Positions 11,704-19,744 of a DNA stretch of 64,000 bases are shown piece by piece. Below the pieces are notes generated by a model, which saw nothing but the letters and a program-made list of their open reading frames with translations, was not told the DNA's origin and did no database searches. This stretch comes from a bacterium (lineage in GTDB: Bacteria > Deinococcota > Deinococci > Deinococcales > Deinococcaceae), in contig JAJZIR010000001.1 in the NCBI GenBank assembly GCA_021810505.1, forward strand, positions 62,001-126,000. The letters run 5' to 3'. Made by a program: the position numbers and the translations under genes. Position 1 is the first letter of the stretch; every line of letters begins with the position of its first letter.

Positions 11704-13383
11704 TCAGCCGGTCACTGCCCCGCCCGCGGCGCTCCCCACCAACTTGGCGTACTTGGCCAGCACGCCGCTCCGGTAGCGCGGCGCCGGCGGGGTCCAGGCG
11801 CTCCGGCGCCTGGCTAACTCCGCCTCGCTGACGTTGAGCTGCAGCAACCGCCGGTCGGCGTCCAGGGTGACGCTGTCTCCCTCCTCGACCAAGGCCAACG
11901 TCCCCCCCACGGCCGCTTCGGGGGCGATGTGCCCCACCACCAGCCCGTGGGTCCCCCCCGAGAAGCGGCCGTCGGTGATCAGGCAGACCTGGTCCCCCAA
12001 CCCCTTGCCGATGATGGCGCTGGTGGGGGAGAGCATCTCGCGCATCCCCGGTCCGCCTACCGGGCCCTCGTAGCGGATCACGATCACGTCTCCGGGCTGG
12101 ATCCGGTCACCCAAGATGGCCTCCATGCAGGCTTCCTCGGAGTCGAAAACTCGCGCTGGCCCGGTCATCTGCAGGATCTTCAGGCCGCTGATCTTGGCTA
12201 CCGCCCCCTCGCTGGCCAGGTTGCCCCGCAAGATGGCCAGGTGCCCGTCTGGATGAAACGGGTGGCTTACCGGGCGGATGACCTCCTGGCCCGGGCTGGG
12301 CTGGCTGGGGGCCTCGGCCAGATTTTCCCGCACCGTCTTGCCGGTGACGGTCAGGCAGTCCCCCTCTAGGAGGCCGGCGTCTAGCAGCAACCGCATGATC
12401 AGGGGAATCCCGCCAGCCCTATGCAGGTCGGTGGCCACGTAGCGCCCTGACGGCTTGAGGTCGGCCAGCAGCGGGGTGGTCTCGCGGATCCTTTCGAAGT
12501 CGTCCAGGCTGAGGTCGACTTGGGCGGCGTGGGCGATGGCCATCAGATGAAGCACCGCGTTGGTGGACCCCCCGACTGCCATCACCACGCGGATGGCGTT
12601 TTCGAAGGCGGCCTTGGTCAGGATCTGCCGGGGCGTCAGGTTGCGCTCGATCAGAGCGACCAGGGCTTGGCCGCTAGCTCGGGTGCTGAGCGCCTTTTCC
12701 GGATCCTCGGCGGCCATGGTCGAAGAGTAGGGCAGGCTCATCCCCATGGCTTCGAAGGTGCTGGACATGGTGTTGGCCGTGTACATCCCTCCGCAGGCCC
12801 CTTTGCCCGGGCAGGCGAACCTCTCCACGTCCTCGAACTCGGCCCGGCTGATCCGGCCGGCGCTGAACTCACCCACCGCCTCGAAGGTGCTCACGATGGT
12901 CAGGTCCCGGCCGCGCAGGTGGCCCGGCTTGATGGTCCCGCCGTAGACGAAGATGGCCGGGATGTCCAGGCGAGCCATGGCGATCATGGCCCCGGGCATG
13001 TTCTTGTCGCAGCCACCGACCACGATCAGTCCGTCCATGGACTGTCCCCGGCAGACCGTCTCGATGCTGTCGGCGATCACTTCTCGGCTGACCAGGCTGT
13101 ACTTCATCCCCTCGGTTCCCATGGAGATGCCGTCGGAGACGGTGATCGTTCCGAAGATCTGGGGCATCGCCCCAGCTTCACGGATAGCTGCCTCTGCCTC
13201 CGCGGCCAAGTCTCCCAAGCCGGCGTTGCAGGGGGTGATGGTGCTGTGGGCGTGGGCGACCCCTACGATCGGCTTACCGAAATCCTGATCCCCGAAGCCG
13301 ACGGCCCGTAGCATGGCCCGGTTGGGGGCCCGTTGGTCGCCCTGGGTGATGATGTGGGAGTGGCGGTTGGGCAGCTCGGGCAT
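11704..13383 (-). CDS. ilvD: Dihydroxy-acid dehydratase
   Basis: IlvD dehydrates dihydroxy acids to the keto acids that precede valine and isoleucine. The 559-residue protein carries the iron-sulfur cysteines in [11 protein letters not shown] and [16 protein letters not shown], plus the C-terminal [10 protein letters not shown] signature. The ATG has AGGAG five bases upstream. It is the last gene of the ilvB-ilvN-ilvC-leuA-ilvD run; the ordering puts the entire shared branched-chain pathway, with the first leucine step, under one promoter and attenuator upstream of ilvB. Confidence 0.97.
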
Positions 13384-13417
13384 GTTTTCTCCTATCCTGT
13401 GCGCGGTCGGTCGGGTT

Positions 13418-14941
13418 TCAGGGGGTCGGTTCGGCCGGTCGCAGCGAGCGAGACCCGCCGACCACCTGGTTGAGGGCTTGGATCCAGGCCCTGGCGCTGG
13501 CTTCGACTACGTCGGTAGCCAGCCCGATCCCGGAGACCAGAGCTCCGCGGTGGCGGGCAGTGACGCTGACCTCGCCTAGGGCGTCCCCACCCCGGGTCAC
13601 CGACTGGATCCGGTAGGCTTCCAGCTCCAACTCCAGCTCGCTGAGCTGGCTGATCGCCAGGAAGGTGGCTTCCACTGGGCCATCTCCGGTGGCGGCGGCC
13701 TGGCGGATCCCTTGGGGGGTGCGCAGCCGCACCGTGGCCATGGGGGTGACGTGCGTTCCGGACAGCACCTGGAGAGACTCCAAGACGAAATGCTGCGGCA
13801 CCTCGCTCTCGGCGTCGATCAGCGCCCGGAGATCCTCGCTGTGGATCTGCCCCTTGCGGTCGGCCAAGTCCTTGAAGCGCCCGAACAGCTCGGCGATCCG
13901 CTCCTCGCTGAGGTTGTAGCCGAGCTCGACGACAGCTTTGCGGAAGGCGGCGCGCCCGGAGTGCTTGCCGAGGACCAGGACAGCTGCCTCTCGGCCGACC
14001 AGATCGGCGTTCATGATCTCGTAGGTCTCTCTGGCCTTGATCACGCCGTCTTGGTGGATCCCTGACTCGTGGGCGAAGGCGTTGTCGCCGACGACGGCTT
14101 TGTTGGGCTGCACCAGCATTCCGGTCAGCCGGGAGACCAGCCGGGAACTGCGGTAGAGCTCTCGGGTGTTCACCCCCGTCTCCATGGGGTAGCTATCCCG
14201 CCGGGTGTGCAGCGCCATCACGATCTCCTCGAGGCTGGCGTTGCCGGCCCGCTCGCCGATCCCGTTGACGGTGCACTCCAGCTGCCCCGCCCCGGCCTCT
14301 ATGGCCGCGAGGCTGTTGGCGACCGCCAGGCCCAAGTCGTCGTGGCAGTGTGCGCTGAGGGTGCTCTCCGGGAGGGCGGCGCAGAGTCGGCCGATCAGCT
14401 CCCCGTACTCCCTGGGGGTGGCGTAACCGACCGTGTCGGGGGCGTTCAAGACGCTAGCTCCGGCCTGGGCGGCGGCTCGGAAGATCTGGATCAAGAAATC
14501 CAGTTCGGAGCGGCTGGCGTCCTCGGCGGAGAACTCGACCTCGGCGGCGAGCTGCTTGGCCAGGGTCACCGCTTGGACGGCCCGGTCGATCACCGCCTCG
14601 GGCGAGAGCTGCAGCTTCTTGGCCATGTGGATGGGACTGGTGGCGATGAAGACATGAATCCGCCCGTGCTCGGCAGCTTCCAGCGCGCGAGCCGCCACTT
14701 CGATATCGGTCTTGGCCGCCCTGGCCAGGGCGGCTATGGTCACCCCGCGGACCTCGCGCGCGATCCGCGCTACCCCCTCCGCGTCCCCGGGCGAGGAGAT
14801 GGGGAAACCCGCCTCGATCACGTCCACGCCGAGGTGAGCCAGCTGGTGGGCGATTTCCAGCTTCTGCCCGTGATGGAGGGCTACCCCTGGGGATTGCTCG
14901 CCGTCGCGCAGCGTGGTGTCAAAAATCTGGATCCTTCGCAT
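13418..14941 (-). CDS. leuA: 2-isopropylmalate synthase
   Basis: LeuA condenses acetyl-CoA with 2-oxoisovalerate, the first committed step of leucine synthesis. The 507-residue product has the catalytic TIM barrel starting [15 protein letters not shown], the metal-binding [15 protein letters not shown] and [14 protein letters not shown] motifs, and a C-terminal regulatory domain of about 120 residues that normally binds leucine for feedback inhibition. The ATG at 14941 has GGAGG three bases upstream. It sits 32 nt after ilvC and 34 nt before ilvD. Confidence 0.96.
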
Positions 14942-14973
14942 GGTCCTCCCGCCGGTCTCGGCGCCTGTGCGCC

Positions 14974-15978
14974 TCAGACCTCCAGCTCCTGTTTGCGGAT
15001 GAACGGCATCATGGCCCGCAGCCGCTCCCCCACCTGCTCCAGGGGGTGTTGGGCGGCCTGGTCGCGCATCCGCTGGAAATTGGGCCTTCCAGCCTTGGAC
15101 TCGGCCACGAACTCTCTGGCGAACTCGCCGCTCTGAATGCGCCCTAGGACCTCCTCCATGGCTTGACGGCTGGCCGCTCCCACCACCTTGGGTCCGCTGA
15201 CGAAGTCGCCGTACTCGGCGGTGTTGGAGATGCTGTGGCGCATGCCCTTAAAGCCCTTCTCGTAGACCAGATCGACGATCAACTTCATCTCGTGGAGGAC
15301 TTCGAAGTAGGCGATCTCGGGCTGATACCCCGCCGCGGTGAGCACTTCGAAGCCGTTGCGGATCAGGCTGGTCAGGCCACCGCAGAGCACCGCCTGCTCG
15401 CCGAATAGGTCGGTCTCGGTCTCCTCCTTGAAGGTGGTCTCCAGGACACCGGCCCGGGTGCTGCCGATCCCCCGCGCGTAGGCCAGGGTCAGCTCCCGGG
15501 CCCGGCCGCTGGCATCTTGGTGGACCGCGAAGATCGACGGGATTCCAGCTCCCTCCAGGTACATCCGCCTGAGCATGTGGCCGGGACCCTTGGGAGCCAC
15601 CATAAACACGTCGAGGTTTCGGCTCGGGGTGATCTGGCCGAAGTGGATGTTGAAGCCGTGGGCGAAGGCCAGCGCTGTTCCCGGCCTTTGGTGGGGTGCG
15701 ACCTGATTTTGATAGACCTCGGGCATGATCTCGTCGGGGATGAGCAGCATCACCAGGTCCGCCCCGGCTGCTTCCTCGATGTCGGCCACCCTGAGACCGG
15801 CCTGCGACGCCTTGGTCCGGCTCGGCGATCCGGACCGGAGGCCGACCACCACTTCGACCCCGCTATCTTGAAGGTTTTGGGCGTGGGCGTGGGCCTGGCT
15901 GCCGTAGCCGATGATCGCCACCGTCTTCCCGGCTAGGGGGGTTAAGCTCACATCTGCGTCGTAGTACACCTTGGTCAT
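14974..15978 (-). CDS. ilvC: Ketol-acid reductoisomerase
   Basis: IlvC isomerises and reduces acetolactate and acetohydroxybutyrate in valine and isoleucine synthesis. The 334-residue length marks the short class I form. Visible are VYYDADVSL, the dinucleotide loop [24 protein letters not shown] (the loop that selects NADPH), [12 protein letters not shown], and the C-terminal [12 protein letters not shown] metal-binding helix. The start codon overlaps the ilvN stop (ATGA), and an AAGGAG lies inside the end of ilvN. Confidence 0.97.
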
Positions 15979-16550
15979 ACCGACTCCTTAGAAGAGGGGG
16001 ATGGGGGGAGGATGGGCTCCAGCGTCTGGCTCGGGCCCGGTGCGTAGCGCTGGCTTTGGATCTCCGCGTTGCTCCCGCGAGTCAGGGCGATCCGGCCGGT
16101 GCGCATGGTTTCCAGGATACCGAAGGGGCGCATCTGTTCGATGAAGGCGGTGATCTTCCCTTCGTCTCCAGTGACTTCGAAGACCAGGGCCCGGCGGCCT
16201 ACGTCGACGATGCGGGCGCGAAAATCCTCGGCGATGTGGCGGATTTCGACCCGTTGGTCGGGGCCCTCTATGCGCACCTTGACCAAGACCAATTCGCGGT
16301 CGACGTACTTCTCCTCGCGGTGATCGATGACCCGGATCACGTCGACCAGCTTCTCCAGCTGCTGCCTGGCTTGATCGACCACCCGGTCGTCCCCCTCCAC
16401 CACGATGGTCATCCTGGATACTCCCCGCTGTTCGGTGCGGCCTACCGAAAGGCTCTTGATATTGAAGTTGCGCCTGGCGAACAGCCCGCTGATCCGGGTC
16501 AAGACCCTCGGCTCGTCCTGGACGATGACGCTGAGCAACCGCTCGCTCAC
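15975..16550 (-). CDS. ilvN: Acetolactate synthase small (regulatory) subunit
   Basis: IlvN binds valine and controls the catalytic subunit IlvB. The product (191 residues) has an ACT domain ([22 protein letters not shown], residues 2-75) and the C-terminal small-subunit domain. I chose the GTG at 16550, which overlaps the ilvB stop as GTGA and fits the family's usual start; a longer frame to 16823 lies wholly inside ilvB. The end overlaps ilvC, so the three genes are translationally linked. The tail (about 25 residues) is Pro/Ser-rich and not part of the domain. Confidence 0.95.
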
Positions 16551-18205
16551 GCTTGGACCGCAGCGGGATCGTCTTCGATCATCTCGGAGAGCGCAGCGCC
16601 CTGCGGGACCATCGGGAACACCGCGTGCTCGTTCGGGACGACCACCTCGAGCAGGGCTGGTCCGGGGCAGCTGAGCCAGCTGGGAACTGTACCCGCCAAC
16701 TCCGAGGCGTCGGTGGCCCTCCAGGACGGAATCCCGTAGGCCTTGGCCAAGATCCCGAAGTCCGGATTGGACTCCCCGATGTAGACTTCGGAATAGCGCC
16801 GGTCGTTGAACATCTCCTGCCACTGCCGGACCATCCCCAGGTAGCTGTTGTTGAGGATCGCGAGCTTAACCGGGATATCGTAGCGCTTGAGAGTGGCCAA
16901 CTCCTGCATGGTCATCTGGAAGCCCCCGTCGCCGACGATCGCGACCGTACGGCAATCCGGCGCAGCCAGAGCGGCCCCCAGCGCCGCTGGGAGGCCGAAT
17001 CCCATGGTCCCGAGTCCGCCGGAGGTCAGCCACCGCCGGGGCCGTTGGAAGCGGGCCAGCTGCGCGGCTAGCATCTGGTGCTGCCCCACATCGGTGGCCA
17101 GGATGTCATTCTCTGCCAGCTGGCCGCACAGAAAGCCGATCGCCTGCCCTGCCCCCCAAGCTGCGTGCGCGACCTGCCTGCCCTTCCACTCCCGGATTTT
17201 CTCCCACCAGGGGTGCAGGTTCTGAGGTTCGGCCCCCTCGGCCAGGCGAGCCGCGACGTCAGAGGCCTCCCCGCGCAGCCCTAGGTGGGTTCGGACCAGC
17301 TTGCCGAGTTCCGAGGCGTCGATATCGACGTGGATGATCTGGGCCTTGGGCGCGAAGCCGGAGATCCTTCCGGTCACCCGGTCGTCGAAGCGCATCCCGA
17401 CACCGATGAGCAGGTCGGACTCGCTGATGCTGCGGTTGGCTGCGACCGAACCGTGCATCCCCGGCATGCCCAGCCAGAGAGGGTCGGCCGCTGGGAAAAT
17501 CCCCAAGCCCATCAGGGTAGTGATGGTCGGAAGGTTCCAGGCCCGGGCTAGGCGGGTGATCTCGAAGCTGGCTTCCTGGGCGCCGCCACCTACCACCAAG
17601 ACCGGCCGCCGCGCCCCTCTCAGCAGGGCCTTGGCCTGCTCGATGTACTCCTCGGAAACGGTGCCCACGGAGGGGCGAGGTCGCGGCGGGCAGAAGCTCC
17701 CGGTGAAGGCTTCCAGCTGGACGTCCTTGGGGATATCGATCAGGACCGGTCCTGGCCGACCGCCCGAAGCCACCGAGACGGCCTCGGCCAGAATCCTCGG
17801 CAGGTCATCGGCTCGCCGGACCAGGTAGTTATGCTTGGTAACGGGTAGGGTGATTCCGGTGATGTCGGCCTCCTGGAATGCGTCCGTTCCCAGCAGGTGA
17901 CGGGCCACGTTCCCGGTGATCGCCAGCAGCGGGACGCTATCCAGCATGGCATCGGCGAGACCGGTGACCAGGTTGGTTGCTCCGGGCCCACTGGTGGCCA
18001 GGCAAACTCCCACCTTGCCGGTGGCCTTGGCCCAGCCCTCGGCGGCGTGGGCAGCTCCCTGTTCGTGGCGGGTCAGGACGTGACGGATCTCTGGGCGGGC
18101 GGTGAGGGCGTCGTAGAGCGGGATCACTGCCCCGCCCGGGTAGCCAAAGATGGTGGTGAGCCCATGGTCGATCAGGCTCTGCAGCAGGGCGTCGGCTCCG
18201 TTCAT
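16547..18205 (-). CDS. ilvB: Acetolactate synthase large (catalytic) subunit
   Basis: IlvB uses thiamine diphosphate and FAD to join pyruvate with pyruvate or 2-oxobutyrate. The 552-residue protein has the thiamine-enzyme layout: FGYPGGAVIPLYDAL and the activating Glu in RHEQGAAHAAEG, a central FAD domain, and the C-terminal GDGGFQMTMQEL...NNSYLGMVRQWQ thiamine motif. ATG at 18205 has GGAGG 9 nt upstream. It is first in its operon, preceded by a leader with a short peptide and a terminator hairpin. Confidence 0.97.
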   Translation of the reverse strand: MNGADALLQSLIDHGLTTIFGYPGGAVIPLYDALTARPEIRHVLTRHEQGAAHAAEGWAKATGKVGVCLATSGPGATNLVTGLADAMLDSVPLLAITGNVARHLLGTDAFQEADITGITLPVTKHNYLVRRADDLPRILAEAVSVASGGRPGPVLIDIPKDVQLEAFTGSFCPPRPRPSVGTVSEEYIEQAKALLRGARRPVLVVGGGAQEASFEITRLARAWNLPTITTLMGLGIFPAADPLWLGMPGMHGSVAANRSISESDLLIGVGMRFDDRVTGRISGFAPKAQIIHVDIDASELGKLVRTHLGLRGEASDVAARLAEGAEPQNLHPWWEKIREWKGRQVAHAAWGAGQAIGFLCGQLAENDILATDVGQHQMLAAQLARFQRPRRWLTSGGLGTMGFGLPAALGAALAAPDCRTVAIVGDGGFQMTMQELATLKRYDIPVKLAILNNSYLGMVRQWQEMFNDRRYSEVYIGESNPDFGILAKAYGIPSWRATDASELAGTVPSWLSCPGPALLEVVVPNEHAVFPMVPQGAALSEMIEDDPAAVQA

Positions 18206-18257: not shown

Positions 18258-18285
18258 AAAAATCCCCGGCTGAGGCCGGGGATTT
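18258..18285 (-). terminator. ilv attenuator (intrinsic terminator in the ilvB leader)
   Basis: On the minus strand AAATCCCCGGC (18285-18275) pairs over 11 bp with GCCGGGGATTT (18270-18260) across a 4-nt loop, and is followed by a run of five T. It stands between the leader peptide and ilvB. An alternative pairing is visible: CGGGGAATCC in the leader-peptide region (18314-18323) with GGAAATCCCCG (18277-18287), which would use up the left terminator arm. This is the layout of amino-acid attenuation. Confidence 0.85.
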
Positions 18286-18305
18286 CCTTAGAAGGCGTGG
18301 TCTGG

Positions 18306-18356
18306 CTACCTTCGGATTCCCCGAAGGCTTCCTAGCAGACCCACCGTCCACCACAT
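18306..18356 (-). CDS. ilv operon leader peptide, 16 residues
   Basis: The frame reads MWWTVGLLGSLRGIRR and stops with TAG. Five of 16 codons are branched-chain ones (Leu x3 as CTG, CTA, CTT; Val; Ile), as expected for a peptide whose translation senses leucine, valine and isoleucine supply. Its ATG lies 7 nt after the -10 hexamer and has no good Shine-Dalgarno, so it would be read from a leaderless transcript. The downstream half of the frame forms one arm of an internal hairpin (CCTTCGG/CCGAAGG) and part of the proposed antiterminator. Confidence 0.75.
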   Translation of the reverse strand: MWWTVGLLGSLRGIRR

Positions 18357-18363
18357 GCCCTAG

Positions 18364-18392
18364 AGACTAGCAAGCCGCGCCGCCCTTGTCAA
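18364..18392 (-). promoter_or_regulatory. Promoter of the ilvB-ilvN-ilvC-leuA-ilvD operon
   Basis: TTGACA (18392-18387) and TAGTCT (18369-18364) are separated by 17 nt on the minus strand, a near-consensus sigma-70 promoter. The ATG of the leader peptide follows 7 nt later, so the transcript probably begins at or next to that codon. Confidence 0.8.
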
Positions 18393-18393
18393 C

Positions 18394-18415
18394 CTGTGCC
18401 CGGCGCCGGGCACAG
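18394..18415. repeat. 22-bp perfect palindrome between the PEGA gene and the ilv promoter
   Basis: CTGTGCCCGGC and its exact reverse complement abut without a spacer. The palindrome starts directly after the stop codon of the PEGA-domain gene and ends 1 bp before the ilv -35 box. It can serve as a terminator (although no T-run follows) or as an operator for the ilv promoter; the sequence does not decide. Confidence 0.7.
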
Positions 18416-19648
18416 CTAAGGCGCGCGGTTGAGGTTGGCTACCAGGACTTGGTTACCGGTCAGGTCCACCTGCTGCACCGACACCAGGTAGCCACCCGCC
18501 AGGACCACGATCTGATAGCTCCCCGGGGTCAAGCTGCGCGACAGGCTGCCGTTTCCGATCCGGCCGATCGGGTGCCCGTTGGCGAAGACGGTCGCCCCGT
18601 TGACGTTGCTGAAGACCTGGAGAAGATCCCGCAGAGGATTCAGCTGCGCGTTCACCGTGGTCAGGCCGGGAACGATCTCGACCTGGCGATTGAAGGTCTG
18701 GTAACCCGCCCTGCTCACGCTGAGCCGGTAGCTGCCAGCAGTCAGCTGGTGCACGGTCAAGGGAGTCTGCCCCAGCGGGTTGCCGTCCAAATCGACCTCG
18801 GCTCCGGGCACGTTGCTGGTGACCAGCAGGTCGCCTTGTTGGATCCGCCGGGCCAAAGTCACGCTGAGGGTGTCGATCTGGCCCCTGGCGACGAAGGCGC
18901 TGGTCTGCTCGGGATAGTATCCGGGGTCGCTGAAGCGGACCTGGTGGGCGCCCGGCCTCACCGGGAGATCGAGCGGGGTGCGGCCGACCAGCTGGTTGTC
19001 GACGAAGACGAAGGCGCCGCTAGGGTTGCTGCGCAGCTGCAGCGTGCCGGTCTGGGGTCTAGGGTGGGGGTTGGCCACTTGATAGTAAGCCACTGCGCTC
19101 ACCCAGGAGGCCTGCGGGACAGGATGGACCGCGATCGAGAGCGCGTGAGCCAGGCCGCTTTCCCCGCGCACGCGCACCCGAGCGAAGCCCTGCCCCTGGA
19201 ACTGAGCGATCTGCCCGAGCTGGAGTGGTACCCGGCTAGCGATAGCCAGCACCCGGTTCAAGCCGAAGGGGCCAGTGACGGTAAAGTTGAAGGGATCGCC
19301 GGGCCCCGGAAATACTCGTGTCGTACCAGCGCTGAGATAGTTCCCGCCGTTGGAGTAGTGGTTGGGCAGGATCAGATCGATGCGGCCGTGTGGTCCGATA
19401 TTGAACAGGTAGACGTAGGAGTTCTGAGTGACGTGCACGAAGATGTGGATGGGGTTGCCCGGGTAATAGCCGGGCGCGCCCAGGCCACTGGGGGCCTTGC
19501 CGACCCAGACCCGTACTCCGACCTGGGCCGGTACCGGGTTGACGATGATGCTCTCGGGACTGATCACCGAGCGCGCCCGGGCGACCCAAGTTAGCGGCAG
19601 CAGGACGATAGCCAGCAGGGTGATGAGCCAGTATCTCTTGGTGTACAT
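18416..19648 (-). CDS. Secreted DUF4384/PEGA-domain protein
   Basis: The 410-residue protein begins with MYTKRYWLITLLAIVLLPL, a signal peptide or anchor. Residues about 40-190 match the DUF4384 type (IHIFVHVTQNSYVYLFNIGPHGRIDLILPN). After a spacer come three PEGA repeats (about 210-280, 285-345, 345-410), each with a GxxVxxxxxxxGxTPL core and GxYxxxxxxxGY end; such domains are linked to S-layer and envelope surfaces. AGGAGG lies five bases before the ATG at 19648; the nine upstream in-frame codons are not needed. Its role is unproven, but surface location is likely. Confidence 0.85.
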   Translation of the reverse strand: MYTKRYWLITLLAIVLLPLTWVARARSVISPESIIVNPVPAQVGVRVWVGKAPSGLGAPGYYPGNPIHIFVHVTQNSYVYLFNIGPHGRIDLILPNHYSNGGNYLSAGTTRVFPGPGDPFNFTVTGPFGLNRVLAIASRVPLQLGQIAQFQGQGFARVRVRGESGLAHALSIAVHPVPQASWVSAVAYYQVANPHPRPQTGTLQLRSNPSGAFVFVDNQLVGRTPLDLPVRPGAHQVRFSDPGYYPEQTSAFVARGQIDTLSVTLARRIQQGDLLVTSNVPGAEVDLDGNPLGQTPLTVHQLTAGSYRLSVSRAGYQTFNRQVEIVPGLTTVNAQLNPLRDLLQVFSNVNGATVFANGHPIGRIGNGSLSRSLTPGSYQIVVLAGGYLVSVQQVDLTGNQVLVANLNRAP

Positions 19649-19744
19649 GTGCTCCTCCTGAAAACACGGTAGCAATCCAGGCTGCTCGCCGCGTGAGAGC
19701 GGGACGCGCTGTCCTTCAGGGGGAATCAGCTCCCAGTCAGCGAC

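Follow-up and report, generated by a model that had tools for sequence, protein, structure and literature searches.

The window analysed here, a stretch of 64,000 nt from a 2.3 Mb genome, carries the cluster ilvB-ilvN-ilvC-leuA-ilvD, with all five genes in one direction and the start of ilvN overlapping the stop of ilvB (GTGA). Ahead of ilvB lie a promoter, a short leader frame and a set of potential RNA hairpins ending in an intrinsic terminator (Table 1). Two base pairs upstream of the -35 element, just past the stop of the neighbouring gene, is a perfect 20-bp palindrome (TGTGCCCGGCGCCGGGCACA, 18395-18414); it lacks a T tail, is not repeated exactly elsewhere in the genome (one copy has three mismatches), and could serve as an operator or as a weak terminator. 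The neighbouring gene itself (18416-19675), upstream of the leader, has a predicted product that is secreted or membrane-bound and contains repeated domains, and its match to the LIC10124 lipoprotein family was weak and far below the cut-off.

Table 1. Features of the ilvB leader and the ilv cluster (positions within the window)
Feature	Position	Strand	Basis
-35 element TTGACA	18392-18387	minus	sequence; perfect -35; TTGAC[A/G] at the equivalent place in 58/58 genomes
-10 element TAGTCT (TAnnnT type)	18369-18364	minus	sequence; 17-nt spacer; ATG (18356) 7 nt beyond
Leader peptide frame MWWTVGLLGSLRGIRR + stop TAG	18356-18306	minus	sequence; LIV-rich peptides at the equivalent place in relatives; masking model
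Anti-antiterminator hairpin GCCTTCGG/CCGAAGGT, inside leader frame	18308-18328	minus	folds; forms without ribosome
Predicted antiterminator: CGGGGAATCCGAAGG with GCCTTC...GGAAATCCCCG	18277-18323	minus	masked folds, codons 2-8; captures terminator 5' arm
Intrinsic terminator TCCCCGGC CTCA GCCGGGGA, then TTTTT	18282-18258	minus	sequence and folds
ilvB, acetolactate synthase large subunit	16547-18205	minus	TIGR00118 above cut-off; Shine-Dalgarno GGAGG just before ATG
ilvN, ilvC, leuA, ilvD	11704-16550	minus	TIGR00119, TIGR00465, TIGR00973, TIGR00110 above cut-offs (NCBIfam); ORFs

The preliminary description of this DNA had proposed an ilv attenuator driven by a leaderless leader peptide and transcribed from a near-consensus promoter. 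The perfect TTGACA and the length of the spacer agree with that wording; the -10 hexamer, which matches TATAAT at only three of six bases, makes it generous, and the promoter was missed by a generic promoter scan. The exact combination of promoter and ATG spacing has one match in the window and was absent from 100 shuffles, and a looser version of the pattern occurs twice across the whole genome. The leader ATG does lie 7 nt past the -10 element, as had been claimed; from this geometry we predict a 5' untranslated region of 0-1 nt, with transcription probably starting at or beside the leader ATG.

We compared the regions upstream of ilvB in this genome and 57 relatives (58 genomes from five families), drawn from a phylum set of 111 genomes in five families. 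The ribosomal protein L4 of this genome had as its best solved match a chain of 1NKW and 2ZJP, which we take to be from Deinococcus radiodurans, and one set of the relatives is Thermus-like by the same protein; we infer that the genomes compared belong to the Deinococcus-Thermus phylum. The same layout was present in all 58: TTGAC[A/G], 16-18 nt, a TAnnnT-type box, some 6-10 nt, a start codon (ATG or GTG), a short reading frame and, last, a terminator. All 58 genomes passed a single fixed rule, against 1 of 5,800 dinucleotide shuffles, a count in which the genomes, being related to each other, are not independent events. The same rule was then applied to forty further, held-out genomes, one of which has a contig that ends at ilvB; 38 of the remaining 39 passed, G109 being the exception. 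The gap between the -10 element and the start codon was 6-10 nt in nearly all 58 genomes, suggesting 5' untranslated regions of at most about 4 nt in the relatives. The leader start was set by hand rather than by the automatic choice in two relatives (G013 and G047), and in G002 the scan took GATACT (9-nt gap) where TACTCT (7 nt) suits the family better. The comparison of leaders in related genomes, which the preliminary description had put forward as a check, thus supports its central proposal of attenuation through a leaderless leader peptide well, with the start of the transcript deduced from promoter position.

The poor -10 hexamer and the absence of the promoter from the generic scan would fit an arrangement in which the attenuator is real, but transcription starts further upstream, giving the leader a conventional 5' untranslated region. 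Against this, the TTGACA and TAnnnT boxes are held at a near-fixed distance before the start codon across five families and, on inspection of the sequence, the leader ATG has no Shine-Dalgarno element, whereas ilvB has one. We regard an upstream start as unlikely.

The leader frame itself comprises 16 codons on the minus strand, as previously described, and its TAG stop (18308-18306) lies 100 nt before ilvB. Codons 7 and 8 form a Leu-Leu pair (CTG CTA), the rare CTA being one of the three Leu codons. Its description as rich in Leu, Val and Ile was overstated for this copy, in which 5 of the 15 codons after Met encode these residues (P ~0.26 relative to the genome's own proteins); this weak enrichment is therefore no proof of attenuation by itself. 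The description suits the leaders of the relatives better. Their peptides include MTRNAYIVIRLLVAGSGRSRG (same family), MRFGLILSLGLVLIVGPAGGGV (Thermus-like group) and MKNAPIIVVVVALSKGVAA (another family), and the pooled leaders have a Leu/Ile/Val content of 37%, compared with values mainly of 4-24% in the two alternative frames. Similarly, CTA makes up 52% of leader Leu codons, as against 1.6% in ilvB of the relatives and 5.5% across the genes of this genome. The convincing case is that of the family of related leaders and not of this single one.

Two other readings of the leader were set aside. The leader in this genome contains two Trp codons; control by tryptophan through them was rejected, the codons being unconserved in relatives and the cluster being without a trp gene. 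A 50-codon GTG frame (18354-18202, minus), in another frame of the same strand, crosses the terminator and extends over the start codon of ilvB; as an alternative leader it is unsupported and probably due to chance.

The competing hairpins and the terminator with five T residues (18262-18258) that had been noted before ilvB were both recovered, the terminator in the sequence and the competition in silico. The terminator, which a generic terminator scan missed at this position, ends 52 nt upstream of the ilvB ATG, and the leader region folds better than its dinucleotide shuffles (z -4.15). We modelled a translating ribosome by masking successive codons, in folds that ignore transcription kinetics except that the terminator 3' arm was left out. 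With the mask extending to codon 7 or 8, the terminator 5' arm pairs upstream in an antiterminator, GGGGAAUCCGAAGG...CCUUC...GGAAAUCCCC; with the mask at the stop codon, the terminator alone remains; and with no ribosome, formation of a GCCUUCGG/CCGAAGGU hairpin tips the balance towards termination. The predicted switch point is Leu7-Leu8. At codon 7 the antiterminator reached -19.9 kcal/mol, a value that 11 of 500 shuffles equalled or bettered; at codon 8 the signal was weak (80 of 500). The antiterminator duplex of this genome was not better than shuffles (z -0.39), and in several relatives the arms exceeded them strongly (z down to -4.8). When arms were swapped between genera, cognate specificity was modest (P ~0.04).

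Across the 58 genomes, the mean probability that the terminator 5' arm pairs upstream was 0.64 with the ribosome at Leu/Ile/Val codons and 0.16 at the stop, with the former exceeding the latter in 56 of 58. Early codons for other amino acids also gave antitermination in the masking model (mean 0.53), so the model shows where a stall would be permitted and not which amino acid is sensed.

These results bear on whether this particular copy still works. A constitutive partial terminator beside a small frame, decayed here so that it senses no amino acids though the copies in relatives do, would account for the fact that the evidence is weakest in this genome, both in the Leu/Ile/Val count and in the antiterminator arm. 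Every part is nevertheless preserved, the Leu-Leu pair coincides with the predicted switch point and a CTA is retained, and we give decay slightly less credence than an upstream start. The idea that the frame is incidental and the RNA a ligand-binding riboswitch, T-box or protein-bound leader using the same terminator is very improbable: ppGpp riboswitches are known among ilvB leaders elsewhere (PMC10272879) and the leader here is just mildly Leu/Val/Ile-rich, but the frame, its Leu/Ile/Val content and the CTA bias are kept while the nucleotide sequence diverges, and a search of the window against Rfam (T-box, riboswitch and other families) returned no family at its gathering score, low-threshold matches being far below theirs.

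Given the parts, conservation, codon bias and in silico fold logic observed, we consider it highly probable that a ribosome-mediated transcription attenuator governs the ilvBNC-leuA-ilvD cluster, its leader peptide being read from an mRNA that is leaderless or has a 5' untranslated region of 0-1 nt; the transcript start, ribosome stalling and control by amino acid supply are the interpretive part of this proposal. RNA polymerase would initiate on or beside the ATG of the leader, leaving a 5' AUG for a ribosome to load on. When leucine (and probably valine and isoleucine) is ample, the ribosome would reach the stop codon and cover the left arm of the antiterminator, so that the terminator would form. 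When leucine is short, it would stall at CTG CTA, the antiterminator would capture the terminator 5' arm and the operon would be read. If no ribosome were present, the hairpin within the leader, GCCTTCGG/CCGAAGGT, would favour termination.

What the comparison documents for Deinococcus-Thermus is an attenuator of branched-chain amino acid synthesis that is apparently ancestral. That the ilv operon throughout the phylum is under such an ancestral attenuator, with its leader always read from leaderless or near-leaderless mRNA, we hold at about even odds. If so, the timing of attenuation would be set by 70S loading on a 5' AUG and not by Shine-Dalgarno initiation. Thermus and its relatives offer a tractable setting for studying transcription-translation coupling where each ribosome has to load on a bare 5' AUG. 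One report indicates that a 5'-terminal AUG can be bound by 70S ribosomes (PMC9031893), and leaderless initiation would for that reason be compatible with coupling.

Within the open-licence literature we found no description of this ilvB leader in Thermus or Deinococcus. The preliminary description had considered a leaderless attenuator leader an unusual variant, a view that published systems do not support: leaderless or 1-nt leaders occur at ilvL of Streptomyces lividans (PMC8079986), ilvL of Corynebacterium glutamicum (PMC11857589) and trpL of Sinorhizobium meliloti (PMC7298713). About 40% of Deinococcus-Thermus genes are predicted to be leaderless (PMC3160421), and a leaderless leader is therefore the expected form in this phylum; the arrangement is an ordinary one there, of a kind already known elsewhere.

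The closest parallels share some features and differ in others. The ilvL of the S. lividans ilvBHC operon is a leaderless 13-codon Leu/Ile/Val leader (MRTRILVLGKRVG) with a terminator before ilvB, in another phylum and with a peptide not evidently related to the one here (PMC8079986). In Streptomyces coelicolor, mutation of the ilvB leader control codons was without effect (cited in PMC1262725), suggesting that leaders of this type need not act as classical attenuators. At ilvBNC of C. glutamicum, transcription starts 1 nt from the ATG of a 15-codon branched-chain leader with competing hairpins and a terminator, and start-codon and Val-codon mutants alter expression (PMC11857589; PMC10272879); there, however, Val codons are those shown to matter, and the transcript starts 292 bp before ilvB as against about 150 here. 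The RNA of S. meliloti trpL likewise begins at the leader peptide ATG, but belongs to a tryptophan gene, and both its leader RNA and its peptide have functions in trans as well (PMC7298713). A recent attenuation model for ilvB1 of Mycobacterium tuberculosis uses a similar masking argument (PMC13236596). The Salmonella leu attenuator shares the use of rare CUA Leu control codons (Carter 1986, cited in PMC1183508); it serves an enterobacterial leu operon and is not described as leaderless in PMC1183508, which states that rare control codons increase its sensitivity.
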